Source: Methanomassiliicoccaceae archaeon DOK
GTDB lineage: Archaea; Thermoplasmatota; Thermoplasmata; Methanomassiliicoccales; Methanomethylophilaceae
Assembly: GCA_009911715.1 (NCBI GenBank)
Contig: CP047880.1
Coordinates: 1,240,001 to 1,304,000, forward strand
Direction of reading: 5' to 3'
DNA length: 64,000 bases
Shown: piece after piece, positions 10,809-43,617 of the stretch
Position numbering within the stretch: the first letter of the stretch is position 1
Layout of the letters: every line of letters begins with the position of its first letter
The notes under the pieces: generated by a model
What the model was told of the DNA's origin: nothing
Seen by the model: the letters and a program-made list of their open reading frames with translations, nothing else
Database searches by the model: none
Program-made: the position numbers and the translations under genes

Positions 10809-12020
10809 ATGGCTTACGTGAACGAGAGCGCCGTCCCCATCAGGGACGACATATACTGGATCGGCGGGGACGACCGCACCGCATCGATCTTCGAGGGCGC
10901 CTTCCCCATACCCGAGGGCGTCTCCTACAATAGCTACCTGATCAGGGACGAGAAGACATGCCTCCTGGACTCCTGCGATGCGTCCATCGCCGCCAAGTTC
11001 TGGAGGAACCTGCGCACCGCCCTGGACGGCAGGCCCCTCGACTACTTCGTGATCAACCACATGGAGCCGGACCACGGCGCGTGCATCACCCAGGTGCTGG
11101 AGACGTGGCCGGATGTGACCGTCATCGGGAACTCCAAGACGTTCGACATGATGGAGAACTTCTACCACATCCAGCCCAAGAACAGGATGGAGGTCAAGGA
11201 GGGCGACGAGGTCACCATCGGGAAGCACACCCTCCGCTTCTACTTCGCCGTGATGGTTCACTGGCCCGAGGTGATGTTCACCTACGACGTCGGTGAGAGG
11301 ATCCTCTTCTCCGCTGACGCTTTCGGGACCTTCAAGACCCTCTCCGGCGCCCTTTACGCCGACGAGACCGACTTCGACAGGGAGTACCTGGACGAGGCCA
11401 GGAGGTACTACTCCAACATCGTGGGGAAGTACGGAAGCAAAGTCCAGGCCGTGTTCAAGAAGCTCGACGGTGTGCCGATAGACATGATCTGCCCCCTCCA
11501 CGGACCCATCTGGAGGAAGGACCTCGGCTACATCCTCGAGAAGTACGACCTCTGGAGCAGGTACGAGCCCGAGGAGAAGGGCGTCGTTATCGCCTACACC
11601 TCGATGTACGGCAACACCGCCGCCGCTGCGGACAGGCTCGCCATGCTGCTGAAGGAGAGGGGCATCGCCAACGTCACCATGTACGACGTCACCAGGATGC
11701 ACCCCTCCTACGTCGTGTCGGACGCGTTCAGGTTCACCAACATCGTCCTGGCGGCCCCGACGTACAACAACGCCCTCCACCCGACCATGTCCGCGGTCAT
11801 CGAGGACATGGAGAACATGGCGGTCCAGAACAGGAGGTACTCCCTCATCGGCAACGGATCGTGGGCGCCCCAGTCCCCCAGGATCATGGAGGAGCGCATA
11901 TCCAAGCTGAAGGACATGACCAAGGTCGGCGAGACCTTCGTCATCAAGTCGTCCATGAGGGACGACCAGCTCCCGGACCTCGAGAAACTGGCGGACGAGA
12001 TCGCCGCCTCGATGTCCTGA
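10809..12020 (+). CDS. fprA: A-type flavoprotein (F420H2 oxidase / diiron flavoprotein)
   Basis: 403 residues. The N-terminal beta-lactamase-like diiron domain carries HMEPDHGA (His84, Glu86, Asp88, His89). The C-terminal flavodoxin domain starts at about residue 258 (VVIAYTSMYGNTAAAADRLA). In methanogens such proteins reduce O2 to water with F420H2; related ones reduce NO. The gene is single, with its own promoter, and a textbook terminator follows at 12,031. It is an oxygen-defence enzyme in a strict anaerobe. Confidence 0.93.
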   Translation: MAYVNESAVPIRDDIYWIGGDDRTASIFEGAFPIPEGVSYNSYLIRDEKTCLLDSCDASIAAKFWRNLRTALDGRPLDYFVINHMEPDHGACITQVLETWPDVTVIGNSKTFDMMENFYHIQPKNRMEVKEGDEVTIGKHTLRFYFAVMVHWPEVMFTYDVGERILFSADAFGTFKTLSGALYADETDFDREYLDEARRYYSNIVGKYGSKVQAVFKKLDGVPIDMICPLHGPIWRKDLGYILEKYDLWSRYEPEEKGVVIAYTSMYGNTAAAADRLAMLLKERGIANVTMYDVTRMHPSYVVSDAFRFTNIVLAAPTYNNALHPTMSAVIEDMENMAVQNRRYSLIGNGSWAPQSPRIMEERISKLKDMTKVGETFVIKSSMRDDQLPDLEKLADEIAASMS

Positions 12021-12030
12021 ATATCTTGAA

Positions 12031-12053
12031 GCGGAGGGGTCCGACCCCTCCGC
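12031..12053 (+). terminator. Terminator after fprA
   Basis: Perfect 10-bp stem GCGGAGGGGT / ACCCCTCCGC with a 3-nt loop, then ATCTTTATTTTTG. It also lies at the 3' end of the convergent hydantoinase-like gene and may serve both. Confidence 0.8.
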
Positions 12054-12081
12054 ATCTTTATTTTTGATTTCTACCGCGGGG

Positions 12082-14067
12082 TCAGAACATCCTCGGCTTC
12101 CCTGCGGCCGTGACCACGAGGATCGCCTCCTCCAGGTCAGTCGATCCCAGGTTAAGCACGTACGGCTTCCTGTCCAGGTCGACGGTGACCTCCACGAACT
12201 CGGCGTTGTTGTCCAGGGCGGCCTTCGTCACGAACTCCCTGCCCTGCTCCACACATCTCTCGACAGCTTCGTCCATCGTGGTGTAGATTGCCCTCCCGAA
12301 CCTGGAGAAGACCTCGTAGGCGCTTCCCTCGACGGCCTTTATCGGGGATATGCTGAACTTCACGGACTCCGAGACCGACGCGCATATCGCGCCGACCGCG
12401 TTGCCCACGTCCGAGTCGTCGCATACGATGACGTCGGTGCCGAGGACGTCGCCGACCCATCTGATGTACACGCCGGACGGCGCGCCTATGCCGACGATCG
12501 GCTTGTCGAGCTTGAAGAAGCAGCCGAAGTCCCGGGCGTGCTCGCAGGTGATGGCCTTCGTCAGCAGGTCCGCCCCAGTCCTCCCTAAGTCCGGCTCGCC
12601 GGAGTCCTCGGTGATCAGCGCCTCCATGAGCTCGCGGCACAGCTTCGTCCGGATGGTCTTCCTGCATTCGCCCACGAACTCGTCGGCATCCATCCCGGCG
12701 AGGGCGGCCAGATAGGCCGCTCCGGCCTTCGATGCGTCGACGTCGAACTCCGTGTAGGTGCCGTCCGCGTGGAGCACGTCTGTCGGCGTGAACCCTATCC
12801 TCTGGATGAGTCCCATCTCCTCCAGGCTCTCGAGGAAGAAATCGGACGGCTCGCGCCCGAGCCTGTCACACGCCTCCATGATCCCGCAGGGCTCGTCGAA
12901 GGCGAGCTTCAGCAGCTCCGTGTTGTCCTCGTTCACGCTGTAGCCCTCCGGCGGCATCCTGACAGTCAGGATCATCTCCGAGGCGAGGGCCTGCCTGCCG
13001 GGCTTTGGCAGCTCCTTGACCATCGGCTTCGGAAGCCCGTCGGTCAGACGCGAGAACGCCTCCGCCACCTTCGGCCACCTAGTTGCCGCCACGCACATGG
13101 GTATCGCCCTCCTCGGCGTCAGCACGGGCCTGCCTGGGTTGACCACGATGCGGCTGTCGCCCCCTATACCGGAGGTGTAGATCCTGGCCGCCATCACCCT
13201 GGTCCTCTTTCCGCCGATGACGGTCCCCTCTGGGTCGAGGCTCGGGCGTCCGTTCCTCAGGATCCCTATATCGGTCGTGGTTCCGCCCATGTCCATGACC
13301 ACCGCGTCCCTGACGCCGGCCATGGACATGGCGCCCATCAGACTGGCCGCCGGTCCCGAGAGGATCGTCTCCACCGGCCTATCCCTCGCGAAGGAGTCCT
13401 TCATCATCGTTCCGTCGCCGCGAGAGATCATGAGCGGAGCGGAGATGCCCCTCTCGTCGAGAACGGCACGGACCGAGCGTATGAGCTCGTCCATGACGGG
13501 GATCAGTCTGGCGTTCATCACGCAGGTGGTGGTGCGCTCGTTGAAACCGAGCTCGGACGAGAGCTCGAAACCGCAGACCGCCGGGACGTCCAGGATCTCC
13601 CTGGCCATCTCCCTGACCCTGATCTCGTGCTCCGGGTTCCTGACGCTCATGAAGCTGGAGATCGCTATTCCCTCGACCTTGCCCTTGATCGACTCGAGGA
13701 ACTCCCTGGCCTCCTTCTCGCCGAGGTACTGTACCGGTTCACCGTGGATCCCATGGCCACCCTGAATCCTGACGCTGTAGTCCGGGGGCAGCGTGTTGTC
13801 GTAGTCGCATCCGATGCTGACGAGCCCTACACGGCAGCCCCTCCCCTCGACAACCGAGTTTGTTGCCAGAGTGGATGAGAGCGCCACGACGCCAACTTTC
13901 CCAAGCATACCTGGGTCGAGCCCGTCGATGGCTCCGCGTATTCCTATGCTGAGATTCCTGTGGGTGGTCCTGGATTTGGACTTGCAGAGGACCTCCCCCC
14001 TGTCCAGATCCATGATCACCGCGTCCGTGTATGTTCCGCCGGTATCCAATCCGAGTCCGTACCCCAT
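12082..14067 (-). CDS. Hydantoinase/oxoprolinase-family ATPase, copy 1
   Basis: 661 residues, ASKHA (actin-like ATPase) fold. The phosphate-1 loop is GLDTGGTYTDAVIMD near the start and phosphate-2 is VVMDMGGTTTDIGI; SGIGGDSRIVV follows. Known HyuA/oxoprolinase members hydrolyse cyclic amides (N-methylhydantoin, 5-oxoproline) using ATP, normally with a HyuB partner, and no HyuB is in this window. It is divergent from an orphan corrinoid protein with a palindrome-rich spacer, and a paralogue lies 2 kb away. I infer a role linked to a corrinoid-dependent methyl donor; it could instead be an activator-like ATPase. The start at 14067 (MGYGLGLD) follows an AGGGAT; an ATG 15 nt upstream is possible. 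Confidence 0.8.
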   Translation of the reverse strand: MGYGLGLDTGGTYTDAVIMDLDRGEVLCKSKSRTTHRNLSIGIRGAIDGLDPGMLGKVGVVALSSTLATNSVVEGRGCRVGLVSIGCDYDNTLPPDYSVRIQGGHGIHGEPVQYLGEKEAREFLESIKGKVEGIAISSFMSVRNPEHEIRVREMAREILDVPAVCGFELSSELGFNERTTTCVMNARLIPVMDELIRSVRAVLDERGISAPLMISRGDGTMMKDSFARDRPVETILSGPAASLMGAMSMAGVRDAVVMDMGGTTTDIGILRNGRPSLDPEGTVIGGKRTRVMAARIYTSGIGGDSRIVVNPGRPVLTPRRAIPMCVAATRWPKVAEAFSRLTDGLPKPMVKELPKPGRQALASEMILTVRMPPEGYSVNEDNTELLKLAFDEPCGIMEACDRLGREPSDFFLESLEEMGLIQRIGFTPTDVLHADGTYTEFDVDASKAGAAYLAALAGMDADEFVGECRKTIRTKLCRELMEALITEDSGEPDLGRTGADLLTKAITCEHARDFGCFFKLDKPIVGIGAPSGVYIRWVGDVLGTDVIVCDDSDVGNAVGAICASVSESVKFSISPIKAVEGSAYEVFSRFGRAIYTTMDEAVERCVEQGREFVTKAALDNNAEFVEVTVDLDRKPYVLNLGSTDLEEAILVVTAAGKPRMF

Positions 14068-14105
14068 GGTATCCCTATGCATGTGGGACGTGTTGCTGAC
14101 TATAT

Positions 14106-14148
14106 GATGATTATATCATCTTACATATTATAATGGATGATACATCCA
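14106..14148. promoter_or_regulatory. Tandem palindromes in a divergent promoter
   Basis: GATGAT-TAT-ATCATC (14106-14120) and TGGATG-ATA-CATCCA (14134-14148) lie between the divergent hydantoinase-like and corrinoid genes. The second belongs to a TTGGAT/ATCCAA-type motif seen at other methylotrophy and transport genes in the window. Confidence 0.5.
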
Positions 14149-14207
14149 ACTAAATTCACAGGTTTTAGTTACCTTTATTTCATACCGTGAGAATACCTAT
14201 CAATCCC

Positions 14208-14867
14208 ATGAACCAAGACGAGATTCTTGACAAGCTCGGAGCCTCCATCGAAGCCTACGACATTGATGAAGCCGAGAAGTATGCCAGGCTTGCGATGGAT
14301 GAGGGCATATCGCCCGACGATGCGATAAACCTGGGTCTCGCCAAGGGCATGGACACGATAAGCCGTCTTTTCGACGAGGCCAAGATCTTCCTCCCCCAGA
14401 TCCTGATGGCTGCCAAGGCCATGGAGGCGGCCCTCGACATCATCGAGCCCTACATGAAGAAGGGCGACGATGTCAAGCTCAAGGGGGTCATCGTGATGGG
14501 ATCCGTCAAAGGGGACATCCACGAGATCGGTAAGAACGTCTGCTGCGCCATGCTGCGCGGTGCCGGATTCAAGGTCATCGACCTCGGGACCGATGTCTCG
14601 CCCTACGCGTTCGAGAAGGCCATAGAGGAGTCCAACGCCGATGTCGTCGGAGGGTCCGCGCTCATGACCACAAGCCTGTACCAGCAGAAGGACATGGTTC
14701 GCGTGTTCAATGAGGACAAACTCCCGGTGATCACGATTTTCGGAGGGGCCCCCTGCAGCGAGGAATGGGTCAACGAGATCGGCGGTGACGGCTACTCTGC
14801 ATCCGGGTCGGAGATCGTGGAGCTCGTCCGCAGACTCCTCTCCGAGAAGCCTGACGGGTCAGAGTGA
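14208..14867 (+). CDS. Orphan corrinoid protein, MtmC-like
   Basis: 219 residues. N-terminal four-helix cap, then the cobalamin-binding domain with GDIHEIGKNVCCAML (lower-ligand His105), GGSALMTTS and FGGAPCSEEW. It is far closer to the MtmC at 26.8 kb than to MttC or MtbC; the segment from AEIFLP to RGAGF is nearly superposable. No methyltransferase gene is attached. Possible partners are the lone second MtmB at 29.1 kb or an unknown enzyme tied to the neighbouring hydantoinase-like ATPases. I take ATG 14208; a GTG 21 nt upstream is an alternative. The leader is short, with an AT-rich TTTATTT box about 35 nt upstream. Confidence 0.88.
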   Translation: MNQDEILDKLGASIEAYDIDEAEKYARLAMDEGISPDDAINLGLAKGMDTISRLFDEAKIFLPQILMAAKAMEAALDIIEPYMKKGDDVKLKGVIVMGSVKGDIHEIGKNVCCAMLRGAGFKVIDLGTDVSPYAFEKAIEESNADVVGGSALMTTSLYQQKDMVRVFNEDKLPVITIFGGAPCSEEWVNEIGGDGYSASGSEIVELVRRLLSEKPDGSE

Positions 14868-14917
14868 TCCGTTAATTCTGATTCAGAAAAAGGATTTGGA
14901 AATGGTTTCTCGTCCGC

Positions 14918-15259
14918 TCAGGACACCATCTTCAGACCGACCACTCCGGCCACTGTGACCATAAGGAACAGGACCATTCCGAGTGTGATCGTCTCCAGAC
15001 CCAAGATGGCGGATACGATGATGGTCAGGACGACGCCGAGGCCCACCCACACGGCGTAGGCCGTGCTGATGCTGATGCCGCTCTTCATCGGAATCGAAAG
15101 GCACAGCATACTGAGCAGAAGCGATACGAGGACTATGATGTCCCACAGGATGTTGGTCATCCCCTCGGTGTAATCCAGGCCTATGGACCATCCGACCTGG
15201 AACACCCCTCCTAAGATGATCAGGAGCCAGGCCACCCTTGGACTGACGTTGAGTTCCAT
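14918..15259 (-). CDS. SMR-family transporter subunit B (Glu replaced by Gln)
   Basis: 113 residues, four transmembrane helices. Small multidrug resistance family, closest in pattern to the SugE/Gdx branch (GGVFQVGWSIGLDYTEG). The essential membrane glutamate of helix 1 is glutamine here (Gln21), while the partner subunit keeps Glu. This suggests an asymmetric heterodimer with one proton/substrate carboxylate. The ATG at 15259 is preceded by GGAGGTG at 7-nt spacing, which is better than the GTG at 15268. It follows subunit A by 1 nt. A substrate such as guanidinium or a quaternary amine is inference. Confidence 0.85.
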   Translation of the reverse strand: MELNVSPRVAWLLIILGGVFQVGWSIGLDYTEGMTNILWDIIVLVSLLLSMLCLSIPMKSGISISTAYAVWVGLGVVLTIIVSAILGLETITLGMVLFLMVTVAGVVGLKMVS

Positions 15260-15260
15260 T

Positions 15261-15596
15261 TCAGGCACCTCCAGATGTCAGACGGATACCGACAATTCCG
15301 ATCACGATCACGATGATGAAGAAGATCTTCTTCGCGTTGATGGGATCCTTGTACAGGAACACACCGGCTATGACCGTTCCAATCGCACCGATCCCCGCCA
15401 GGATGCTGTACGCCACACCGGGCCCAATGTTCAGGACGGCCAGCGACAGCATGAACAGACAGCAGAGAACGGCGACGATCGCGGCGATCCCCCATCCCTT
15501 CTTCTTGAAGTTGTCCGACTTCTCGAGAAGGACCACCCAAATGGGCTCGAGGATGCTTGCTATGATCAAGCACACCCACGACATTGCTGCTTCCAT
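15261..15596 (-). CDS. SMR-family transporter subunit A
   Basis: 111 residues, four transmembrane helices. Helix 1 reads IIASILEPIWVVLLEKSDN with the conserved Glu, and GPGVAYSILAGIGAIGT is the usual helix-3 motif. Paired SMR genes normally form a heterodimeric proton-coupled exporter of small cations. A second complete pair lies at 43.3 kb. Its placement between an orphan corrinoid gene and two hydantoinase-like ATPases suggests that it moves a substrate or product of that cluster. Confidence 0.87.
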   Translation of the reverse strand: MEAAMSWVCLIIASILEPIWVVLLEKSDNFKKKGWGIAAIVAVLCCLFMLSLAVLNIGPGVAYSILAGIGAIGTVIAGVFLYKDPINAKKIFFIIVIVIGIVGIRLTSGGA

Positions 15597-15922
15597 GCAG
15601 ATTGTATCGCCGAGTCATACATATTAAAGGGTAGCAGTTGGACGCGTTAAGATGCAGTTTTTTGAATCAGACTGTTGTATGTTTGATTGAATTTCTATAA
15701 TAAATTTTTGTCCAATAGTAGTTGTTGTTTCAACCACTTATATTTATACATTCTCTTTATTTGATGATTAGTACATCCAATTCGTTTATCCACCCATCAA
15801 ATCATCAAGCCCACATTCCGGACATGATCTGCTTCATACCGTACGGAAACAGATGACACTTCCGATTCGATGGATGTTTAATACATTGAACAGTTGAATT
15901 AAGATGTTTGATAAATGAAATC
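15597..15922. other. AT-rich spacer without a gene
   Basis: I see no coding region or tRNA here. The stretch is strongly AT-rich (TATATTTATAC near 15740, ATTAAAGG near 15630). It contains TTGATG / CATCCAA elements (15761-15780) and an imperfect inverted repeat TTTGATGATT / AATCATCAAG (15760-15812). The right end of the spacer is probably the promoter region for the SMR pair. Confidence 0.4.
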
Positions 15923-15958
15923 GGGCGGGAGACAAAGGATAATCATTGGCCCCCGCCC
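15923..15958 (-). terminator. Hairpin after hydantoinase-like copy 2
   Basis: GGGCGGG / CCCGCCC arms with a 22-nt loop directly beyond the stop of the minus-strand ATPase gene, followed by an AT-rich stretch on that strand. Confidence 0.5.
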
Positions 15959-15975
15959 TGATATTTGAACCAGGC

Positions 15976-17988
15976 TTACGCCTTCTTCCTGTAGGCAGGG
16001 TCTCCGGTCGCGGTGATGATCAGCTTGATCTCCACGAACCTCGTCCTCAGATGCTCCTTTCCGACGAAGACCTCGGACTTGTCGGAACCGACCGTGACCT
16101 TGATGTTCTCGGCCCCCGCCTTCTTGGCCATCTCGGTGACGTACTGCTTGCCTGCCTCGGTCGCCTGCACGACTCCGTCGTCGAACTTCTCGTAATAGAA
16201 CCTGCCGAGTCTGGAGAACGCGGTGCATGCGGGGTTGTCGATAGTCGTTCCGGTGGCGGTCTGGATGAGTATCTCTATACTCTCGACGACCTTTCCGCTC
16301 ACCGCTCCAACGGCGTTTCCTACGTCGTAGTTCTCCGGCATGACCAGCTCCGTGCCCAGAAGCTCTGCGACCTTCGGAAGCATGTCGTACGCGGGACCTC
16401 CCATTCCGATGATGGGCTTGTTGAGCCTGAAGGACACGTCGTAGTCCAGGGCGTGGGACCCAGTGACCGCCTTGTCCACGAGATCCATCCCGAAACCGGT
16501 GAGGTCGGTCTCCCTGTTGTCCTCGAGAAGTACTTTCTTGACGATCTCCATACCGATCTTCTCGGTGACCAGGTAGTCGGCCTTTGCGATGAACTCCTCG
16601 GGCGTCATGTCCAGGTTGGCGGCGTGGTACGCGATTCCGAGCTTGGACGCCTCCGCATCGTACTTGGTGAAGCATCCGCGGGCGTGCATCAGGTCGGTAG
16701 GGGTGAGCCCGATTCTCTGGATTATCCCGAGCTCCTCCATCTTCTCGATGTTGAACGAGATCGGAGGCTCCTTCAGCTTCCTCTTGGCCTCGGCGAGCGA
16801 ATGAGGCTCATCCTTGACGAAGTCGAGGAACTTCTCGTCCAGCTCGGTGAGGTAGTCGGCGTTCTTCATCTCCTTCACTTTGATGAAGTACTCCGTGTCG
16901 ATGACTATGTTCCTGGCGTAATGGGCCACAGGAATCTTCTTCGGACCGTCGTCGACAAGGGTCTGGAGCCTCTCGCGCAGACCGGGATGCTTCCATGCGG
17001 CGACGCAGAGGGGTATGACGCGGACCGGCGAGAGGTACACCTTCTCCCCGTTTATGACGATGCGGCTGTCCCCGCCCATTCCCGCGGTGGTGATCTCCGC
17101 CGCCATGACACGGGTCCTGTACCCGCCGATGAGGGCGCCCTCGGGATCCAGACGGGGCTTGCCGTCCCTGACGATTCCGATGTCGGTGGTGGTGCCTCCG
17201 ATGTCGACAACGATGGCGTTGTCCTTACCGGAGAGCTTCTTGGCACCGTTGATACTGGACGCGGGTCCTGAGAGGATCGTCTCCACGGGCCTGATCTTCG
17301 CCATCTCCTCGCTCATGACAGAGCCGTCTCCCTTGACGATCATCAGGGGGGCGTCAATGCCGAACTCGTCCAGGACCTTGTTGACCGACTGGATGAGCTC
17401 CTCGATGACTGGGATGAGCCTGGCGTTCATCACACAGGTGATGGTACGCTCGTTGAACCCGAGTCCGGAGGACAGCTCGTATCCGCAGACCACGGGCACG
17501 TGGAGGGTCTCCTTCGCGAGAGCGGCGATCTCCTGCTCGTGCTCAGGGTTCCTGACGCTCATGAACCCTGTGACGGCCATACAGTCGACCTTGCCCCTGA
17601 TCGATTTGAGGAACTCCTTCGCCGCCTCTACGTCGAGGGGCTCGTCGACCTTGCCGGTCGCCGTGTGGGATCCCTTTATCATAATAGAATAATCAACCTT
17701 GGCGGAAACGGTGATCTGGGATCCGATCAGGATCAGACCCACGCGGCACCCCTTGCCCTCCACGATGGAGTTGGTGGCGAGGGTGGATGACAGACAGACT
17801 GTGACGACCTCGGAGAGGAGGCTCTTGTCGAACTCCGCGATGGCACCCTTGATCCCTATGGAAAGGTCGTTCCTCGTTGTGAGGGACTTCGCCCTCTCGA
17901 AGATCTCCCCTGTGTCGAGGTCCATTATCACTGCGTCCGTGTACGTTCCACCCGTGTCGAATCCTAGTCCTAGCCTGCTCATCTCCAT
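15976..17988 (-). CDS. Hydantoinase/oxoprolinase-family ATPase, copy 2
   Basis: 670 residues, paralogue of the gene at 12.1-14.1 kb along its whole length. Phosphate-1 is GFDTGGTYTDAVIMD, phosphate-2 is VVDIGGTTTDIGIVRDG, then GMGGDSRIVI. Both copies share VCLSSTLATNSIVEGKGCRVG-type text and CVMNARLIPV. No HyuB partner is present. It is divergent from mttB across a 376-nt spacer, so the two may share regulation by methylated amines. Starts at 17988, 17982 and 18012 are all possible, and none has a clear ribosome-binding site. The reaction is unknown. Confidence 0.8.
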   Translation of the reverse strand: MEMSRLGLGFDTGGTYTDAVIMDLDTGEIFERAKSLTTRNDLSIGIKGAIAEFDKSLLSEVVTVCLSSTLATNSIVEGKGCRVGLILIGSQITVSAKVDYSIMIKGSHTATGKVDEPLDVEAAKEFLKSIRGKVDCMAVTGFMSVRNPEHEQEIAALAKETLHVPVVCGYELSSGLGFNERTITCVMNARLIPVIEELIQSVNKVLDEFGIDAPLMIVKGDGSVMSEEMAKIRPVETILSGPASSINGAKKLSGKDNAIVVDIGGTTTDIGIVRDGKPRLDPEGALIGGYRTRVMAAEITTAGMGGDSRIVINGEKVYLSPVRVIPLCVAAWKHPGLRERLQTLVDDGPKKIPVAHYARNIVIDTEYFIKVKEMKNADYLTELDEKFLDFVKDEPHSLAEAKRKLKEPPISFNIEKMEELGIIQRIGLTPTDLMHARGCFTKYDAEASKLGIAYHAANLDMTPEEFIAKADYLVTEKIGMEIVKKVLLEDNRETDLTGFGMDLVDKAVTGSHALDYDVSFRLNKPIIGMGGPAYDMLPKVAELLGTELVMPENYDVGNAVGAVSGKVVESIEILIQTATGTTIDNPACTAFSRLGRFYYEKFDDGVVQATEAGKQYVTEMAKKAGAENIKVTVGSDKSEVFVGKEHLRTRFVEIKLIITATGDPAYRKKA

Positions 17989-18228
17989 TCGCCTATTATT
18001 CTTATTTTCCATCCTGTGGACAGAGGCATGGAAGCCCCTTCCGATGCAATGCGAGAGCAGAGTTAGTTGCTACATATAATACAATCACCCGGGGGTGGGT
18101 GGCCGAGGTCGGAAAAATGAACAAGAAACTCGGATTACACATCCATCTATGGAAATGGTTTTATATGGTTGGACAAGGCAACAAATTCATCAGAATCATC
18201 CAATAGTAATTTTTAAATAGAATGAAAA

Positions 18229-18305
18229 ACGGAGCTTGCGAGCAAAAAGCTCGCGACGTACATCCGTATTTAATACTTTTGATTCAGTCACATAGCATTA
18301 TATAG
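18229..18305 (+). promoter_or_regulatory. mttB upstream hairpin and TATA box
   Basis: A GCGAGC-AAAAA-GCTCGC hairpin (18238-18254) is followed by CATTATATAGG (18295-18305), the TATA element of mttB, 60 nt before the ATG. The same ATTATATA element precedes mtmC, the second mtmB and (as TTATATAGG) pylT. AT-rich TTTTTAAATAG at 18211-18221 is a second candidate box. The remainder of 17989-18364 holds CATCCA / TGGA half-sites but no gene. Confidence 0.5.
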
Positions 18306-18364
18306 GATAAATGGAATCATTCGTCCAACGAGTGTATCCAATACTCTCGTATGGAGGAAACAAA

Positions 18365-19852
18365 ATGGAAGCAAGATTCCCAGGCAGAAAAAGCCTGAAT
18401 GGCGTAAAGCTGGAGCTTTTCTCTGAGGACGACATTCGCGAGATCGACCTCGCGACCAGGGACATCCTGACCAACGCTGGTGTCCAGGTCTCCGATGAGG
18501 AAGCCAGGCAGCTCTTCAAAGACGCCGGATGCGAAGTCAACGAGGAGACTTACATCGTCAAGATCCCCGACTGGCTTCTCAACAAGTGCCTCGACATGGC
18601 ACCGTCCAAATTCTACCTCTACGGAAGGGACGACGAGCACACACTCGAGCAGCAGTGGTGCGGAAAGGTCCACTTCACCTGCTTCGGAACCGGAATCCAG
18701 GTGTGCAAATACCTCGGAGACGGAAAGTTCGAGACCAGGGACTCCACCGACGCCGACCTCGCCGAGTGCGCTAAACTCGTCGACTGGGCCGAGAACATCG
18801 ACTACTTCTCCCTGCCTGTCTCCGCTAGGGACTGGGCCGGAAAGGGTGCCGAGGATGTTCACGAGATGTACACATCCATCGCGAACACCGTCAAGCACTT
18901 CCACCACATCGACCCCGTCGGAGAGCACGTCGAGTACTACTGGGAGATGGCAAAGGCCTTCTACGGTGGCGACGAGAAGAAAGCCCGCGACAGGCCCATC
19001 TTCTCCATGCTCGTGTGCCCCACCAGCCCCCTCGAGCTGTCCCACAACGCCTGCCAGGTCATCATGAAGGGAGCCAGGTTCGGCATCCCCGTGAACGTCC
19101 TGTCCATGGCCATGTCCGGCGGATCCTCGCCCGTGTTCCTCGCAGGAACCCTCGTCACCCACAACGCCGAGGTCCTGTCCGGAATCGTCCTGGCCCAGCT
19201 GGCTGCCCCCGGCGCCAAGTGCTGGTACGGATCCTCGACCACCACCTTCGACCTCAAGCGCGGAACTGCCCCCGTCGGTTCTCCCGAGCTGGCCCTCACC
19301 TCTGCAGCTGTTGCAAAGCTCGGACAGTACTATGGACTGCCCGTGTTCGTGGCCGGTGTCTAGTCCGACTCGAAGGTCCCTGACACCCAGTCGGGACACG
19401 AGAAGACCATCACTGGACTGTTCCCCGCACTCTCCGGAGCCAACACTCTCTACGGAGCCGGAATGCTCGAGCTCGGAGTCACCTTCTCCATGGAGCAGCT
19501 CGTCATCGACAACGACATCATCTCCATGATCAAGAAGGCCATGGACGGAATACCGGTGAACGAGTACACCCTCGCCGTCGACGCCATCAAGGAGGTCGGC
19601 GTTGGTAACGACTTCATCGGACACGAGACCACCATGGACAACATGGACCTCCCCTCCGACCCCCTCGTCATCAACCGTGACATGATCGGAGACTGGAGAG
19701 CCGCCGGCTGCAAGAACCTGGCCGAGGCTGCCCACGATGTCGTCGAGGACGTCCTCAAAAACCACACCGTCGAGCCTCTGACACCCGAGGTCGACGCCGC
19801 AATGAAGGCCATCGTGAAGAAGGCCGACGATGAATTCCTCAAGGAGGCTTGA
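18365..19852 (+). CDS. mttB: Trimethylamine methyltransferase (pyrrolysine protein)
   Basis: 495 residues with one in-frame TAG at 19361-19363, codon 333, read as pyrrolysine. It moves a methyl group from trimethylamine to Co(I)-MttC. The Pyl context [21 protein letters not shown] and flanking [12 protein letters not shown] are characteristic. Stopping at the TAG would remove the C-terminal third of the barrel. I chose ATG 18365 because GGAGG lies 7 nt upstream and the TATA box at about 18300 leaves room for a leader; the in-frame ATG at 18311 is too close to that box. The mttC ribosome-binding site AGGAGG is inside the last codons. Confidence 0.96.
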
Positions 19853-19857
19853 ATTTA

Positions 19858-20511
19858 ATGTCACAGGAAGAAGTCAACGCAAAAGCGAAACAGGCAGTGC
19901 TGAAATACGATGTCAAGGGCGCCAAGGCAGCAGCCCAGCAGGCAGTCGACGAGAAGCTCGACCTCGTCCAGGTCATCAACGACGGTTTCACCGCCGGAAT
20001 CCAGGAGGTCGGAGAGCTCTTCGAGGCCAAGAAGCTGTACCTGCCCCACATCATGGCAGCCGCCAACGCGATGAACGCCGGTGTCGACATCCTGACCCCC
20101 GAGATCGAGAAGTCCGGAGCCAACACCGGAGAGGGACTCGGAAAGTTCGTGATCTGCACCATCGAGGGTGACATCCACTCCATCGGAAAGGACATCGTCG
20201 CCATCATGCTGAAGGTCGCCGGATTCGACGTCGTCAACCTCGGAAGGGACATCGCCCTGAAGGACATCGTCGCCGCATGCAAGGCCGAGAAGCCCATCGC
20301 CGTCGGAACCTCCGCGCTCATGACCTCCACCATGGTCAACCAGAAGACCCTGGAGGAGCTCCTGAAGGAGGAGGGAATCAGGGGAGACCTGATCACCAAC
20401 GTCGGCGGAGCACCCACCACCCAGCAGTGGGCCGACGAGATCGGAGCCGATGTGTACTCCGAGAACGCCCTGGACTGCGTCGCCAAATTCAAGGCGAAGG
20501 TCGCCCAGTGA
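19858..20511 (+). CDS. mttC: Trimethylamine corrinoid protein
   Basis: 217 residues. A helical cap is followed by the B12 domain, with GDIHSIGKD (lower axial ligand His107), GTSALMTST and NVGGAPTTQQW. It accepts the methyl group from MttB and passes it to the corrinoid:CoM methyltransferase, whose gene is not in the window. It begins 6 nt after mttB, with its ribosome-binding site in the end of mttB, so the two are co-translated. In the mttB-mttC-transporter order it matches the Methanosarcina mttBCP operon. Confidence 0.95.
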   Translation: MSQEEVNAKAKQAVLKYDVKGAKAAAQQAVDEKLDLVQVINDGFTAGIQEVGELFEAKKLYLPHIMAAANAMNAGVDILTPEIEKSGANTGEGLGKFVICTIEGDIHSIGKDIVAIMLKVAGFDVVNLGRDIALKDIVAACKAEKPIAVGTSALMTSTMVNQKTLEELLKEEGIRGDLITNVGGAPTTQQWADEIGADVYSENALDCVAKFKAKVAQ

Positions 20512-22461: not shown

Positions 22462-23103
22462 ATGGCTTTCGAGAACGAAGAGAAAAAACTGCACGACGCG
22501 CTCGTGTCCTGTAAAGTACCTGACATCGCCAAAGCTGTCGACGAGGCCCACGCTGCCGGAATGTCCGCTACCGCGATCATCGACTGCCTCGGAAACTCCA
22601 TGTCCGAGGTCGGTGTCCTTTTCGAGAGGGGAAAACTGTTCCTGCCCCACGTCCTGAGTGCCGCCAACGGAATGAAGAAGGCAATGGACGACCTCGGACC
22701 GGAACTCGCCGCCGGTGGAGAGACCGGAGAGGCCAAGGCCTCCGTCGTCATGGGAACCGTCGAGGGAGATGTCCACGACATCGGAAAGTCCATCTGCTCG
22801 ACCATGCTCCAGTGCGCCGGATTCGATGTCCACGACCTCGGAAGGGACGTCCCCAAGGGCAACTTCATCAACGAGGTCCAGAACGGATGCACCTTCTGCG
22901 GAATGTCCGCCCTGATGACCACCACCATGACCGTCCAGAAGGACGTCATCGAGATGCTCAAAGAGGCCGGACTCAGGGACAAGGTCACCGTCATGGTCGG
23001 AGGAGCCCCCGTCACACAGGCCTACGCCGACAAGATCGGAGCAGACATCTACGGAGAGTCCGCTTCCGAGACCACCAGGAAGGCCAAAGACCTGATTGCC
23101 TGA
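22462..23103 (+). CDS. mtbC: Dimethylamine corrinoid protein
   Basis: 213 residues. Helical cap, then the B12 domain: [15 protein letters not shown] with ligand His105, [10 protein letters not shown], and [16 protein letters not shown]. It is assigned to dimethylamine because it lies 29 nt upstream of mtbB in one transcript. GAGGTG lies 5 nt before the ATG. It accepts methyl groups from MtbB in the cytoplasm. Confidence 0.93.
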
Positions 23104-23132: not shown

Positions 23133-24533
23133 ATGACTGAGTATTACACAAGGATGGGTGACGGAAAAAGAATCACCATGACCAAAGAGCAGATCATGGC
23201 TGACCTCCAGGCCGGAACCGCTGACGCGGCCGACATGGGAGAGATTCCCGCACTGAGCTCCGAGGAGATGGAGCAGCTCTTCGACATCATCTCCGACAAG
23301 AACAGGATCGTCGGAGTCGAGCCCGGCAAAGAGGTCGTCCTGACCTACGACATCGGACAGCTGGACTTCACCGGCGACAACGGAAACTCCGGAAACGGAG
23401 TCGACATGGGAAGGCTCGAGGCCGCCCTGCTCCACGAGAGGGCACTGGGAGCCGACACATTCGAGCTCGCCCACGCCGACTACTCCATCAAGCCTGTCAA
23501 GCCCATCATCGCCAACGAGATGCAGACCATGGAGGAGATCCAGAACGAGATCATCGCCCCCTACTTCTACGGAGCGATGCCCAACATGGGTCTCTACTAC
23601 GCCCCCGACGGACCCTACGGAAACCCGGCAGACCTGATGAGGGAGTTCAAGATGGAGGAGTCCATGGCTTCCTCCGAGGCCGCCGCCGAGCACCTCGCAA
23701 GGGACATCGAGTACGTCTCCACCAGGATCATCCAGGCCGGAGCCGACGGATTCAACTTCGACACCACCGCCTCCGCTGGAGACGCCGACTTCGTCGGAAC
23801 CCTCAGGGGAGTCGAGGCACTGAGGAAAGCCTGCCCCGACGCGTACATCAACGTCGGAATGGCCGGAGAGTCCGTCATGGGAATCCACGGTGGAATCGAG
23901 TACGACGGACAGATCGTCGCCGGAATGTACCCCCACCAGCAGGTCAAGATGGCCGAGAAGGCCGGAGCCGATGTCTTCGGACCCGTGTGCAACACCAACA
24001 CCTCCAAGAGCCTCGCCTGGAACCTCGCCCGCTCCGTGACATTCATCAAGGAGTGCGTCAAGGTCGCCACCATCCCCTGCCACGTCAACATGGGTATGGG
24101 AGTCGGAGGAATCCCCATGTGCGAGACCGCGCCCATCGACGCCGTCACCAGGTGCAACAAGGCCATGGTCGAGATCGCCCATGTGGACGGTATTTAGGTC
24201 GGAGTGGGAGACACCGCCGGAATGGCAGTCCCCCACTACATGGCTTCCGGAATGGGAGGAATCAGGTCCGCTGGAGACCTCGTCGCCAGGATGGAGTACA
24301 ACAGCAACATGAAGGTCGACAAGGCCAAGGAGTATGTTGCCAAGAAGCTCGGAATCTCCACCCTCGAGATCGCTGACGAGTGCATCATGAGAGAGCTCAG
24401 GGAGGAGCTCAAGATCGGAACCGTCACCGCCGTGCCCGGTGTTCCCCGCGGTATCGCCGCCAAGATGAACATCGAGAAGCTGCTTGACATCAAGATCAAC
24501 AGCTGCGAGAAGTTCCGCGGAATGCTCAACTGA
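23133..24533 (+). CDS. mtbB: Dimethylamine methyltransferase (pyrrolysine protein)
   Basis: 466 residues with an in-frame TAG at 24195-24197, codon 355 (the known MtbB pyrrolysine is at 356 in Methanosarcina barkeri). Transfers one methyl group of dimethylamine to MtbC. The text around the [25 protein letters not shown], and the TTA-rich start [14 protein letters not shown] fit the family. Downstream reading ([17 protein letters not shown]) is in the same frame and equally conserved, so the TAG is not a stop. AGAGGTAG precedes the ATG. Confidence 0.96.
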
Positions 24534-26811: not shown

Positions 26812-27447
26812 ATGAGCAAAGAACAGATCCTCGCAGACCTCAAGACGTCTGTTGAGACATGGAACATCAAACTCGCCCAGGACGCCACCAACGCCGCCAT
26901 CGCCGAGGGAATCTCCATCGGAGACATCATCGGAGACGGACTCGGAAAGGGAATGGAGGTCGTCGGAGAGAGGTTCGACAAGGCTGAGATCTTCCTACCC
27001 CAGGTCGTCGCCGCTTCCAAGACCATGGAGGCCGCTCTGAAAATCCTCGAGCCCCTGATGAGCAAGGGAGAGGGAGCCCTCAAGGGAACCGTCGTCATGG
27101 CTACCGTCGAGGGAGACATCCACGAGATTGGAAAGAACGTCTGCTGCGCCATGCTCCGCGGAGCCGGATACAACGTCATCGACCTCGGATGCGACGTTAC
27201 CGCTCAGGACTTCATCGACGCCGGAGACGAGAACGAGGCCCAGGTCCTCGGTGGATCCGCACTCATGACCACCACCCTCGAGGCCCAGAGGGAGCTCGTC
27301 GAGGCCGTCAAGGAGGTCGAGGCCCCCTACAAGTGCATCTTCGGAGGCGCCCCCTGCAGCCAGGCCTGGTGCGACGAGATCGGAGCCGACGGATACTCCG
27401 AGACCGCCAACGAGATCATCACCCTGGTCGACAAACTCGTTTCCTGA
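26812..27447 (+). CDS. mtmC: Monomethylamine corrinoid protein
   Basis: 211 residues. Cap helices, then GDIHEIGKNVCCAML (ligand His104), GGSALMTTTL and IFGGAPCSQAW. It receives the methyl group of monomethylamine from MtmB. The mtmC-mtmB order, 29 nt apart, is that of methanogen mtmCB operons. Highly biased codons (ggA, gtC, atC) suggest very strong expression. Confidence 0.94.
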   Translation: MSKEQILADLKTSVETWNIKLAQDATNAAIAEGISIGDIIGDGLGKGMEVVGERFDKAEIFLPQVVAASKTMEAALKILEPLMSKGEGALKGTVVMATVEGDIHEIGKNVCCAMLRGAGYNVIDLGCDVTAQDFIDAGDENEAQVLGGSALMTTTLEAQRELVEAVKEVEAPYKCIFGGAPCSQAWCDEIGADGYSETANEIITLVDKLVS

Positions 27448-27476: not shown

Positions 27477-28865
27477 ATGGCAGCAACAAGAGCGCTGACG
27501 ATCCCTGACGTCTACGACAGGTTCGTGAAAGGCAAGAAGGTCAAGGTCGAGGACTGGGACTACAAGGTCATCCCCGAGAACCTGACCGCCCTGAAAGAGA
27601 AGTACAACATCAAGATCGACCCCAACACCATCATCCCCGAGGACAAGGAGCTCATCAACAACCTGTTCCAGGCCGGACTCGAGATGCTGGTCACCACCGG
27701 ATACTACTGCCAGGACCTCGGCCGTGTCATGCACGTCACCGAGGAGGAAGTCTGGGAGGGAATCAAGAAGACCCCCACCAAGCTGATCCTGGGAGAGGGC
27801 AAAGACATCGCCAGGTTCTACCCCAGGCACGGCAACAGCCCCGTCAAGCCCATCATCCAGGGAGGACCCACCGGATCCCCCATCTCCGAGGACGTCTTCG
27901 TGCAGATCATGCAGTCCTACGCCCAGGAGGGAATCGTCGATGACCTCGTCAACGGAGTCATGACCACCATCGAGGGCCACCCCGCCAAATCCAAGACCCC
28001 CTACGAGATCCGCGCCACCATGGCGGAGCTCAGGGCCACCAAAGAGGCCAGGGTCAGAGCCGGCAGGCCCGGACTCGGTGTTTAGGGACCTGAGACGCCC
28101 CTCTCCGAGGCGGCACGTCTCTGCGCAGACCTCCCCAACGCGGGACACAGGATCACCGACGCCCACGAGTGCTCCCAGCTCAACGAGCTGAAGATGGACA
28201 TGACCGGACTGAACATGCTGGCCGGATGGACCACCGTCGGCGACACCATCATGATCGAGCAGATGCCCATCCTCGGTGGATACACCGGAGGAGTCGAGGA
28301 GACCGCCATCTGTGATGTCGCTACCACCCTCGGATCCTTCGCCTGCTTCAGCGGAAACTTCCACCTCGACGGACCTATCCACATCAGGTGGGGAACCACA
28401 ATGGCCCGCGGAACCCTCCAGGTCGCCGCCCACGCCGCAGCAGCCATCGACGCCAACACCGACCTGCTGCTCGCCAACCAGTACTACCCCATCGCCGGAC
28501 CCTGCACCGAGATGTGCCTGCTGGAGACCGCCGCCCAGGCGATCACCGACACCGCGTCCGGAAGGGAGCTCCTGTCTGGATCCGCTGCCGCCAAGGGAGT
28601 CGTCCAGGACAAGACCACCGGAATGGAGGCCAGGATGATGGGTAACGCCGCTCTGGCTACATGCGGAATGAAGATCTCCGACGTCAACGACGTCCTGAAC
28701 AAGCTCATCCCCATGTACGAGGCCCACTACACCGACGCCCCCGCCGGAAAGACCTTCCAGGAGTGCTACGACGTCAGGACCGTGAAGCCCACCCAGGAGT
28801 ACCTCGAGGTCTACGACAAGGCCGTCGCCACCCTGAGGGACATCGGACTCGACATCAAGCACTGA
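27477..28865 (+). CDS. mtmB: Monomethylamine methyltransferase, copy 1 (pyrrolysine protein)
   Basis: 462 residues with TAG at 28083-28085, codon 203 (Pyl202 in the mature Methanosarcina enzyme). The context GRPGLGV-O-GPETPLSEAA is diagnostic. It transfers the methyl group of monomethylamine to MtmC through a pyrrolysine adduct in a TIM barrel. GPCTEMCLLETAAQ is a conserved active-site region. The start ATG 27477 has AAGGTG 9 nt upstream. A double hairpin follows, separating it from the second copy. Confidence 0.96.
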
Positions 28866-29095: not shown

Positions 29096-30475
29096 ATGAC
29101 AGCGAAGAGGTATGTCGACATCTACGAGGCCTACGACCGCTTCTACGAGGGGAAGAGGGTCAGGGAGGACCAGTGGGACTACTCCATAGTCCCGACGAAC
29201 GCCTCGCTGATGAAGGAGAAGTACGGCATATCCTTCGGACCCGACATAATCCCCACCGACGACGACCTCTGCGAGAGGCTCTTCCTCGCAGGCGTCGACA
29301 TGCTCCTGACCACCGGCTTCTACAACCCAGACCTGGGGCGCGTGATGCACATCACCGAGGAGGAGCTGTTCGAGGGCCTGAAGATGGCCCCCAAGAAGCT
29401 CTCGCTGGGATCCGGGAAGGACAGGGTGAAGTGCAAGGCCCGCCGCGGCAACGCCCGCAGGAAGCCGATCATCCAGGGCGGACCCACCGGGGCCCCCGTG
29501 TCCGAGGACATCTTCGTGTCCATGATCAAGTCCTACGCCCAGGAGCCCGTCGTCGACACCATCGTCAGCGGGGTGCTGAACACCGTCAACAACCACCCGG
29601 CCACCACCAACACGCCCTGGGAGATCCGCGCCACCATGGCGGAGGTCCGCTATGTTCGCGAGGCCTGCCTGATGTCCCAGCGTCCCGGGATGTGCATATA
29701 GGGACCGGAGACCCCGCTGTCCGCCGCCGGACGCATCTCGTCGGACCTCACACCGCACGGGCTGAAGCCCTTCGACGCCCACGAGTGCTCCCAGCTCAAC
29801 GAGATGAAGATGGACATGTCCGGCCTGAACATGCTGGCCGGATGGGGCGCCTCCGGGGACGTCATCATGATGGAGCAGATGCCCATCTACGGCGGTTACA
29901 TAGGCGACATCGAGGAGACCACCATCTGCGACGTCGCCACGATGATCGCGTCGTTCGTCATATTCGACTGCGACATCCACCTGGACGGACCCATCCACAT
30001 CAGATGGGGCACGACCACCACCAGGGAGACCCTCAAGATCGCCGCCCACGCCGCCGCCGCGCTGGACCTCAACACCGACTTCCTGCTGGCCAACCAGTAC
30101 TACACCCTGGCCGGCCCGTGCACCGAGATGTGCCTGCTGGAGACCGCCGCCCAGGCGATCACCGACACCGCATCCGGAAGGGAGCTCCTGTCTGGTGTCG
30201 CGTCGTCTAAGGGCGTGTCCCAGGACAAGACCACCGGGATGGAGGCCAGGATGATGGGCGAGGCCGCGCTTGCCACATGCGGCATGGAGATCCCCGAGGT
30301 CAACCGCGTCCTCGACAGGGTCGTCGGCCTCTACGAGAAGAACTTCGGCAAGGCGCCGCAGGGGAAGAGGTTCCAGGACTGCTACAACGTCAAGGACGTG
30401 GAGCCGTCGGACGAGTACATCGACCTCTACGACGACACCATCAAGACGCTTCTCCGCTGCGGAATCGAGCTCTGA
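29096..30475 (+). CDS. Monomethylamine methyltransferase, copy 2 (pyrrolysine protein)
   Basis: 459 residues with TAG at 29699-29701, codon 202, in the context RPGMCI-O-GPETPLSAAG. It aligns along its whole length with copy 1 but has clearly different codon use (more ggc, ccg, gac) and its own promoter, and it lacks a cognate corrinoid gene. It may use MtmC at 26.8 kb or the orphan corrinoid at 14.2 kb. A 77-nt stretch (30119-30195) is almost identical to copy 1, unlike the flanks. The last gene before pylT. Confidence 0.93.
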
Positions 30476-34640: not shown

Positions 34641-36278
34641 ATGAGATACGGAATAGCATTGGACCTCGGAACCAGCGGGTTCCGCACCCAGGCGATTGAC
34701 CTGGACACGAAAGAGACAGTGGCCACCGCGATCACGGAGCGCCACCCCATCCCCGGCATGAACGTCATCGACCACGTGAACTTCGCCATCAAATCCGGCG
34801 AGGACGTGGCGAACGGACTGATGATCGGGGCCATCAACAACCTGTTCAAGGAGTTCAACATCGACCTGTCCAAGGTCGAGGTGATCGCCGTCTGCGGCAA
34901 CCCCTTCCAGCTCTCCCTCTTCCAGAACATCGAGATCAGGGACCTGGCCTACGCGGGCAAGAACATGCTGAAGGAGCTCGGTGTCGTCTCCCCTCCCAGG
35001 GACGGGGACGTCATAGACGCCACCTCTCTCGGCATCAAGGGAATGCCCAACGCCAAGGTCTACATCCCGCCGGCGGTCACCCACGAGATCGGTGCGGACG
35101 CCATCGCGATGATGCTCATGACGGACATCCTCGACGAGAAGGAGCCCTGCATCGTCGTCGACTACGGAACCAACGCCGAGATGGCCCTTGTCCGCGACGG
35201 GAACGTCTACACCGGATCCGCTGCCGCCGGTCCCGCCCTCGAGGGGCAGGAGATCGAGCGCGGAATGCTCGCCGCCCCCGGCGCCCTGAGCGAGGTCGAG
35301 ATAACCGACAGGGGCTGGAGATGCTACGTGCTGGACGACACCATCGCCGCCGTGGAGGGAGACCTCATCGACCCCGTCACCGGGGAGGTCATCGAGGAGG
35401 GACCCATGCACGGACAGGCTGTTGGAATCACCGGTACCGGAGTGATCGCCGCCCTCTGCAACGGACTGAAGCAGGGCATCATCGTCCCGCCGAAGATCCA
35501 GACCGAGGACGGGCTCCTGCACCTGCAGGACGGGATCACCATCTCCTCCCACGACGTGGAGGAGGCGGGTAAGGCCATCGGCGCGCTCCGCGCCGGATTC
35601 CTCACCCTGCTGGACGACTCCGGCCTCTGGGTCAGCGACGTGAAGAAGGCGTACATGTCCGGCGCGTCCGGACTCTACGTGGACGCCAGGAAGGCCCTCC
35701 AGATCGGAATGGTCACCCCCGGCGCCACGGACATCGTCCAGTTCGGGAACACGTCCATCGGACTCGCCAGGAAGCTCATCTTCGGCGAGGTCACCCTCGA
35801 GAGCCTCAGGGAGTTCGCCAAGAAGCTCAGGGCCACCCACTGCATGTTCGCCACCGCGCCCGTGTTCAAGGACCTGTACTCCATCGAGTACTCCATCTGG
35901 TGCGGAGGCATGCCGTACTCCGAGTACAACAACATGCTCGACCTGTACAACCTGCCCCACCTCCCCGACATGCCCGACGCGAAGGACGTGAAGGTCACCC
36001 GCCTGGCGGTGAGGGACCTGCCGGACACCGAGAAGTGCAAGGTCCACATCATCAAGTCCGGAACAGTCCTCACCGGAGTCCTGGACGGGTGCATCGGATG
36101 CAAGAAGTGCATGAAGGCCTGTCCCGAGCAGGCCCTGACCATCGTCCCCGAGGGAGTGTCCCAGTACAGGGCCAACATCGAGTCCGACCGCTGCGCCGGA
36201 ACCGCGTGCAGGAGATGCGAGGCGGCCTGCCCCAAGAGCGTCATCCACACGTCCGAGCTCAAGACCCTGGACGCCTGA
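34641..36278 (+). CDS. ramA: Corrinoid-activating ATPase
   Basis: 545 residues. Reduces inactive Co(II) methylamine corrinoid proteins to Co(I) with ATP. N-terminal ASKHA-type segments GIALDLGTSGFRTQAID and IVVDYGTNAEMALV; C-terminal ferredoxin region with CIGCKKCMKACP (Cys484, 487, 490, 494) and CAGTACRRCEAACP (Cys518, 523, 526, 530). The second set has four residues between its first two cysteines rather than two. It follows pylD by 4 nt, so it is expressed with pyrrolysine synthesis. Confidence 0.95.
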   Translation: MRYGIALDLGTSGFRTQAIDLDTKETVATAITERHPIPGMNVIDHVNFAIKSGEDVANGLMIGAINNLFKEFNIDLSKVEVIAVCGNPFQLSLFQNIEIRDLAYAGKNMLKELGVVSPPRDGDVIDATSLGIKGMPNAKVYIPPAVTHEIGADAIAMMLMTDILDEKEPCIVVDYGTNAEMALVRDGNVYTGSAAAGPALEGQEIERGMLAAPGALSEVEITDRGWRCYVLDDTIAAVEGDLIDPVTGEVIEEGPMHGQAVGITGTGVIAALCNGLKQGIIVPPKIQTEDGLLHLQDGITISSHDVEEAGKAIGALRAGFLTLLDDSGLWVSDVKKAYMSGASGLYVDARKALQIGMVTPGATDIVQFGNTSIGLARKLIFGEVTLESLREFAKKLRATHCMFATAPVFKDLYSIEYSIWCGGMPYSEYNNMLDLYNLPHLPDMPDAKDVKVTRLAVRDLPDTEKCKVHIIKSGTVLTGVLDGCIGCKKCMKACPEQALTIVPEGVSQYRANIESDRCAGTACRRCEAACPKSVIHTSELKTLDA

Positions 36279-41840: not shown

Positions 41841-42635
41841 ATGGCAGACTGCAAGAGAGCCATAGTCGTGACCAGCTTCGGTACGAGCTACAACGAGAAC
41901 CGCGCCAAGACCATAGAGGCCATAGAGCGCCAGGCCGCCGAGGAGTTCCCCGGCTGGGACATACGCCGTGCGTTCACCAGCAGGATGATCATCAAGAAGA
42001 TCCTGGAGCGCGACGGCGAGAGGATCGACTACATCTCCGATGCCATGGAGAGGCTCGTGTCTGAGGGCTACGGACAGGTCGTGGTGCAACCCACGCACAT
42101 CATGAACGGCACCGAGTACGACGACGTCGTCAGGATCGTGGCCGACCACTGCGGGAACATCCCCGTGCTCAGGATGGGCAAGCCCCTGCTGACCACCTCC
42201 GAGGACTACGACGAGCTCGTGGAGGCCCTGGAGGGGTCCCTACTGAAGGAGATCGCCGACGAAGAGGCGCTCGTCCTGATGGGGCACGGATCCGAGCACT
42301 ACGCCAACGCGACGTACAGCCAGCTCCAGATCAAGCTCTGGCTCGCCGGACACGACGATGTCTTCGTCACCACCGTCGAAGGGTACCCGGAGTTCGACGA
42401 CACCATCCGTCTGATGGAGGGCTGCGGGAAGAAGAAGGCCGTGCTGTTCCCGCTGATGGTCGTCGCAGGAGACCACGCCAACAACGACATGGCGGGCGAC
42501 GAGGACGACTCGCTGAAGTCCGTGCTAGAGTCCCACGGCTACGAGGTCCGCTGCATCGTCAGGGGCATGGGTGAGTACCCCGAGTTCAGGGAGCTCTTCA
42601 TGGACCACATCAGGGACGCGGTCTCCAAGATCTGA
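41841..42635 (+). CDS. cbiK: Sirohydrochlorin cobaltochelatase, CbiK type
   Basis: 264 residues, full-length two-lobed CbiK form. The opening AIVVTSFGTSYNENR, the VVQPTHIMNGTEYD segment and the metal-ligand region LMGHGSEHYANATY followed by MVVAGDHANNDMAG are characteristic. Inserts Co2+ (or Ni2+ for F430) into sirohydrochlorin made by the operon at 0.4-6.9 kb. Confidence 0.92.
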   Translation: MADCKRAIVVTSFGTSYNENRAKTIEAIERQAAEEFPGWDIRRAFTSRMIIKKILERDGERIDYISDAMERLVSEGYGQVVVQPTHIMNGTEYDDVVRIVADHCGNIPVLRMGKPLLTTSEDYDELVEALEGSLLKEIADEEALVLMGHGSEHYANATYSQLQIKLWLAGHDDVFVTTVEGYPEFDDTIRLMEGCGKKKAVLFPLMVVAGDHANNDMAGDEDDSLKSVLESHGYEVRCIVRGMGEYPEFRELFMDHIRDAVSKI

Positions 42636-43284: not shown

Positions 43285-43617
43285 ATGGATCCGGCTATCC
43301 TATGGGTGATCTTCGGAGGGTTTCTCGAACCCGTCTGGGTCATCGGTCTGAAGAAGTACAACGACACCCGCAACAGGCTGTGGGCCGTGGTCGCCATTGT
43401 GTTCATGTTCCTCAGCCCGTGCTGTCTCGCCTTCGCCATGGAGACGATGTCGGTGGGCGTGGCCTACTCCATCTGGACCGGCATAGGCGCCGTCATGACC
43501 CTGGCCACCGGCGTGGTCATGTACCACGACAAACTGGACCGCCTGAAGATCCTGTTCGTGTTCCTCATCATCGCAGGGGTCATAGGCCTCGAGATGTCCT
43601 CGGAGGTGGTCCTGTGA
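43285..43617 (+). CDS. SMR-family transporter subunit, second pair, A
   Basis: 110 residues, four transmembrane helices. Helix 1 IFGGFLEPVWVIGLKKYND keeps the proton/substrate glutamate; MSVGVAYSIWTGIGAVMT is the helix-3 motif. It is the clear counterpart of subunit A at 15.3 kb. Sequence pattern is of the SugE/Gdx branch. Overlaps its partner gene by 4 nt (GTGA). Confidence 0.87.
   Translation: MDPAILWVIFGGFLEPVWVIGLKKYNDTRNRLWAVVAIVFMFLSPCCLAFAMETMSVGVAYSIWTGIGAVMTLATGVVMYHDKLDRLKILFVFLIIAGVIGLEMSSEVVL

Follow-up and report, generated by a model that had tools for sequence, protein, structure and literature searches.

The 64,000 nucleotide stretch of Methanomassiliicoccaceae archaeon DOK DNA analyzed here (contig CP047880.1, positions 1,240,001 to 1,304,000; "the window" below) carries, between its positions 12082 and 18012, two HyuA-like ASKHA ATPases around a corrinoid protein gene and a pair of small multidrug resistance (SMR) transporter genes. 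ATPase A (666 aa; 12082-14082, minus strand) matches Pfam Hydant_A_N (E=1e-25) and the N-terminal half of Hydantoinase_A (E=2e-29); the corrinoid protein, which we name MtmC2 (226 aa; 14187-14867, plus strand), has both a cap and a B12-binding domain (PF02607, PF02310; Pfam B12-binding_2 and B12-binding); SMR subunits 1 and 2 (14918-15268 and 15261-15596, both minus strand) match Multi_Drug_Res at E=1e-14 and E=2e-21; and ATPase B (678 aa; 15976-18012, minus strand) was identified by Pfam, an AlphaFold model and matches to folds in the PDB. These coordinates and strands agree with the layout in the initial annotation of this DNA, in which two HyuA-like ATPases enclose the corrinoid gene and the SMR pair, ATPase A being divergent from the corrinoid gene and ATPase B from mttB. 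All five genes are intact, and comparison with an orthologous locus that is 86-95% identical shows that purifying selection on them is strong (nonsynonymous to synonymous substitution ratio, dN/dS, of 0.03-0.05; 0.05 for ATPase A). The genome, G000 below, is a single contig of 1.89 Mb and belongs to a gut-type methanogen of the order Methanomassiliicoccales.

The two ATPases have the fold of HyuA proteins and lack other features of that class. The Pfam profiles (Hydant_A_N and the first half of Hydantoinase_A) align only with residues ~10-330 of each ATPase, and no HyuA profile covers the ~340 residues at the C terminus. The AlphaFold model of ATPase B (mean predicted local distance difference test score 88.9) has as its nearest PDB folds N-methylhydantoinase, acetone and acetophenone carboxylase subunits and caprolactamase, at template modeling scores of about 0.6. 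The phosphate motifs P1 (DxGGTxTD) and P2 (DxGGT) are present in 61 of 61 members of the ATPase family, and the residues that surround the phosphates in CapA (PMC8453981) have invariant counterparts in it (D19, D26, K42, D270, T274 and D277), but the GxxPGP adenosine motif of HyuA enzymes, as defined in the same paper, is found in none of the 61. The absence of a HyuB subunit, noted initially for this locus, extends to the whole genome: a Hydantoinase_B (PF02538) search that was positive in six control genomes gave no match here. Thus the description "full-length HyuA" stands at the level of the fold and fails for the unmatched C-terminal part and the missing adenosine motif. NCBIfam scores are 106-108 bits against a cut-off of 1000 for CapA and 56-66 bits against 1250-1500 for acetophenone carboxylase. 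Neither ATPase has a Pfam match to RACo_C_ter (PF14574) or Fer4, both of which are present in the corrinoid reductive activase gene ramA of the window (34641-36278, plus strand; TIGR04270, 693 bits against a cut-off of 500), whose product has its own ASKHA domain plus ferredoxin clusters. Because P1 and P2 are universal in the family, whereas GxxPGP and HyuB are absent, we conclude that these are HyuA-fold ATPases that lack several of the tested defining features of HyuA/HyuB enzymes.

The above features say what the ATPases are not, but with which genes do they occur? The family is present in 37 of the 41 genomes searched (orthologues of ATPase A occur in G023 and G020, and a contig scan with ATPase B alone gave a single close relative), and 34 of its 68 genes in the order Methanomassiliicoccales have a corrinoid gene within 5 kb, where 2.6 would be expected from corrinoid gene density. 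These linkage counts are not phylogenetically independent, whereas the P value for 34/68 assumes that they are, so we rely on the ratio of observed to expected; the gene counts vary with BLAST thresholds, and many of the genomes compared are fragmented, so that neighbors may be lost at contig ends. One UroD-type methyltransferase has 17 strong matches (at least 50% identity) in 14 genomes, and 17 of 17 have a family ATPase no more than 7.2 kb away. The compact gene order corrinoid protein, UroD, zinc-ribbon protein, HyuA recurs, with DUF1638 behind it in some loci; in locus L061 (7154-11332) such an operon has a gap of ~7 bp ahead of the ATPase. An exclusive tie to a single methyltransferase class is rejected for the study genome, which has four ATPases and no gene of the UroD1 type; the methyltransferase partners vary among the UroD, MttB and MtmB classes, and it is the corrinoid protein that recurs. 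An MttB-family gene (locus L073, 12512-13975) that follows the ATPase A orthologue of G020 has no in-frame amber codon, and its uninterrupted reading frame makes it a non-pyrrolysine form.

Other recurring companions of the ATPases are RamA, which directly adjoins the ATPase in locus L081, CobW and DUF1638, and further loci add an MtaA-like UroD protein, RamA and an AmmeMemoRadiSam radical SAM protein. In three genomes of one lineage a CbiMNQO cobalt transporter lies 45-69 bp upstream of the ATPase, with DGC-domain proteins downstream; in locus L079 (5986-12017), and also in L072 and L074, CbiMNQO, the HyuA-like ATPase and two DGC-domain proteins form one apparent operon. The Desulfobacterota provide a useful internal control, in that 6 of 8 loci of the full-length form have a corrinoid, MttB or CobW neighbor, against 0 of 32 loci of relatives of ~560 aa (Fisher p=7e-6; three of the ~560-aa rows, all with long branches, grouped with the long forms in the tree). 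Among bacterial plasmid relatives, sampled outside the Firmicutes, neighborhoods are mixed: the Azoarcus gene lies beside MttB-family, SMR, choline/betaine and ASKHA genes, and those of Sinorhizobium, Mesorhizobium and Rhodobacter have no such neighborhood. These observations define a HyuA-fold ATPase subfamily that is linked to corrinoid systems generally, across many archaea and some bacteria. In our literature search we found no paper that ties these ATPases to corrinoid proteins in Methanomassiliicoccales, and no assay of such an ATPase component of corrinoid methyl transfer.

With moderate confidence we favor an ATP-dependent accessory role for the ATPases on the corrinoid protein, in its reactivation or maturation. 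They would work with the corrinoid methyl-transfer proteins, beside RamA, and would drive one of their steps, for example reactivation or the exchange or loading of the cofactor. This role is preferred to activation of a cyclic amide because the corrinoid protein recurs while the methyltransferase class changes; because the companions (RamA, DUF1638, CobW and CbiMNQO) concern cobalt, corrinoids or reactivation; and because strain DCMF co-induces a HyuA-like protein with the gene cluster that demethylates glycine betaine (PMC9768040), a compound without a lactam. DUF1638 and a RamA-like protein have a genetic tie to B12 reactivation (PMC5764234), and DUF1638 is more abundant on N-osmolytes (PMC12478193). 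Two predicted hydantoinases of M. acetivorans, MA4395/4396, lie downstream of mtaCB2 (PMC11619418) and were not used as evidence, since that genome has HyuB and they may be an ordinary pair. The idea that the ATPases serve the corrinoid protein was the second choice of the initial annotation, and with their strong enrichment beside corrinoid genes in the order and in the Desulfobacterota, and their corrinoid and cobalt companions, it appears from gene content and order to be the better fit.

Several observations weigh against an accessory role. RamA is present in the window and already provides ATP-dependent corrinoid reduction. Genome G007 (98% complete) has no detectable ATPase and yet keeps mttBC, mtbBC and mtmBC, so the ATPase is not generally required, and we reject a need for it in methylamine use at large; G010 (89% complete) has MtmC2 and MtmB2 (a second monomethylamine methyltransferase, below) and no ATPase, so MtmC2 in itself does not entail the ATPase. 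In fold, the nearest proteins are enzymes that phosphorylate a substrate and not known reactivases, and a substrate-level partner, too, would be expected to give the 17/17 linkage to one methyltransferase. Finally, 30 of the 68 family genes, including two of the study genome's four, have no one-carbon (C1) gene within 8 kb, several of the 30 being at contig ends. The initial annotation had asked whether the ATPases lie mostly away from corrinoid genes; the family divides half and half.

Could the ATPase instead act on the substrate? It would then phosphorylate a methylated amide, a ureide or a creatinine-like compound at its carbonyl and so make it a better methyl donor to the corrinoid protein through the neighboring methyltransferase. 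The HyuA fold, the invariant counterparts of the CapA phosphate-site residues and the one methyltransferase class with its 17/17 linkage, which could mean an obligate substrate-level partner, all speak for such a reaction, but we regard it as unlikely, given that the genome has no HyuB, that no creatininase- or hydantoinase-type neighbors were found, that the methyltransferase partners span three classes, that the companions include a cobalt transporter and CobW, and that betaine demethylation co-induces a HyuA-like protein. This reading, which as ATP activation of a methylated cyclic amide was the leading idea of the initial annotation, is not supported; the recurring companions have corrinoid and cobalt functions and are not amide- or guanidine-degrading enzymes. 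In our judgment it is very unlikely that a HyuB-less HyuA-type ATPase drives ATP-dependent methyl transfer by phosphorylating an otherwise unreactive N-methyl compound (an amide, a ureide, creatinine or a guanidine) at its carbonyl or amidine, letting a corrinoid methyltransferase take the methyl group; were it true, methanogenesis would be fed in a new way.

The locus forms the edge of a methylamine/pyrrolysine island, and this context bears on MtmC2. Downstream on the plus strand lie mttB, a trimethylamine methyltransferase gene (18311-19852; pyrrolysine (Pyl) TAG codon at 19361, PYLIS_3 at 19361-19460), the corrinoid protein gene mttC (19849-20511), the corrinoid protein gene mtbC (22462-23103), mtbB for dimethylamine methyltransferase (23133-24533; Pyl TAG at 24195, PYLIS_2 at 24195-24294), the corrinoid protein gene mtmC1 (26812-27447), mtmB1 for monomethylamine methyltransferase (27477-28865; PF05369, Pyl TAG at 28083) and mtmB2, a second pyrrolysine-type gene recognized by its likeness to mtmB1 (29096-30475; in-frame Pyl TAG at 29699), together with pyrrolysine genes and ramA. 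MtmC2 had been described as a corrinoid protein without a methyltransferase gene, and its status as an orphan was abandoned once MtmB2, its probable partner, was found in the same window. MtmB2 is 61% identical to MtmB1 overall (54-67% across its two halves), and in the MtmB tree the two fall into separate clades, each with 100% support. Within the genus, MtmC2 belongs to a clade distinct from MtmC1 (key-branch supports in the corrinoid tree 85-93), and in G020, G017, G006 and G001 a gap of 59-438 bp separates genes of its clade from MtmB2; G002, whose corrinoid gene is outside the tree sample, has the same arrangement with a gap of 373 bp. In the study genome MtmC2 and mtmB2 are 14 kb apart. 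The two trees are compatible as to this pairing; linkage supports it strongly and phylogeny, given the modest supports in the corrinoid tree, moderately. Both MtmC2 (193 bits) and MtmC1 (200.5 bits) score just under the TIGR02370 cut-off of 215.3. MtmC2 is thus most likely the partner of MtmB2, judged by linkage and trees, and would carry methyl groups for this second monomethylamine-type methyltransferase. For 'Ca. M. alvus', two Pyl monomethylamine methyltransferases are listed with consecutive accessions (PMC4153887). The study genome has a further MtmC-like corrinoid gene (locus L160, 7212-7850), beside an ammonium-transporter-like gene and with no recognized methyltransferase adjoining it.

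The SMR pair goes with MtmC2 and MtmB2 more than with the ATPases, since SMR pairs flank one or other of these genes in G000, G023, G021, G020 and G004. Subunit 1 has Gln (FQVGW) in place of the central Glu, as do its orthologues in G023 and G021, and subunit 2 keeps the Glu (LEPIW); the SMR pairs beside MtmB2 and the second SMR pair of the window have Glu in both subunits. A heterodimer with one Glu would have changed proton coupling. The second pair (43285-43934) is 38-40% identical to the first and has a gene for the cobalt chelatase CbiK (41841-42635) in its vicinity. A SugE/Gdx-like guanidinium exporter, as first proposed, is not what the scores suggest (SugE model 61-62 bits against a cut-off of 126, a weak family resemblance), and a guanidine riboswitch as support for such export is rejected, no Rfam match at E<=1 being found within 11900-18500. 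The probable cargo of the first pair is a small cation, either a substrate or a product of the MtmB2/MtmC2 system.

It might still be held that MtmC2 is a genuine orphan and that its SMR and ATPase neighbors are an accidental assembly at the island edge. Neither ATPase A nor ATPase B is partnered by UroD here, and their paralogues in the same genome have housekeeping genes as neighbors, serS and adk among them; an accidental assembly is nevertheless quite unlikely, as the MtmC2-SMR link is seen again in G023 and G021, SMR pairs flank MtmB2 in G020, G021 and G004, MtmC2 orthologues adjoin MtmB2, and purifying selection acts on all five genes. An ordinary 5-oxoprolinase, hydantoinase or caprolactamase, as the top Pfam and NCBIfam names have it, is hardly credible and we reject it, with NCBIfam scores of 56-108 bits against cut-offs of 1000-1500, no HyuB, GxxPGP in 0 of 61 members and an unmatched C-terminal half.

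If the ATPases are corrinoid accessory factors, the subfamily is misnamed by terms such as hydantoinase and oxoprolinase, and methanogens, sulfate reducers and possibly acetogens have, in addition to RamA and DUF1638, a further component of corrinoid methyl transfer. The corrinoid protein-UroD-zinc-ribbon-HyuA operon marks an uncharacterized methyl-substrate system in Methanomassiliicoccales, and MtmB2/MtmC2 with their transporter pair are a directly testable candidate for the use of a second methylamine-like substrate.

Among known systems, MtmC2/MtmB2 are closely related to the MtmBC monomethylamine system, and MtmB2 retains the Pyl codon, but MtmB2 forms a separate clade, its corrinoid partner is 14 kb away and its substrate is putative. 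With the alpha subunits HyuA, OplA and CapA of ATP-dependent lactamases and hydantoinases, and with the acetone and acetophenone carboxylase ATPase subunits, the ATPases share the ASKHA fold, P1 and P2 and the domain order; they differ in having no HyuB, no GxxPGP, a divergent C-terminal half and a corrinoid methyl-transfer neighborhood. RamA and RACo are, like them, ASKHA ATPases within corrinoid methyl-transfer clusters, directly adjacent to them at some loci, but RamA has Fe-S clusters and RACo domains, and ATPases A and B have neither in Pfam. The HyuA-like "HydA" of the betaine clusters of strain DCMF, Sporomusa and Frackibacter (PMC9768040), which we liken to them by description and not by sequence, differs in its substrate, betaine, and its methyl acceptor, tetrahydrofolate, but it too is encoded beside MttB-family methyltransferases and corrinoid proteins and is co-induced with them.

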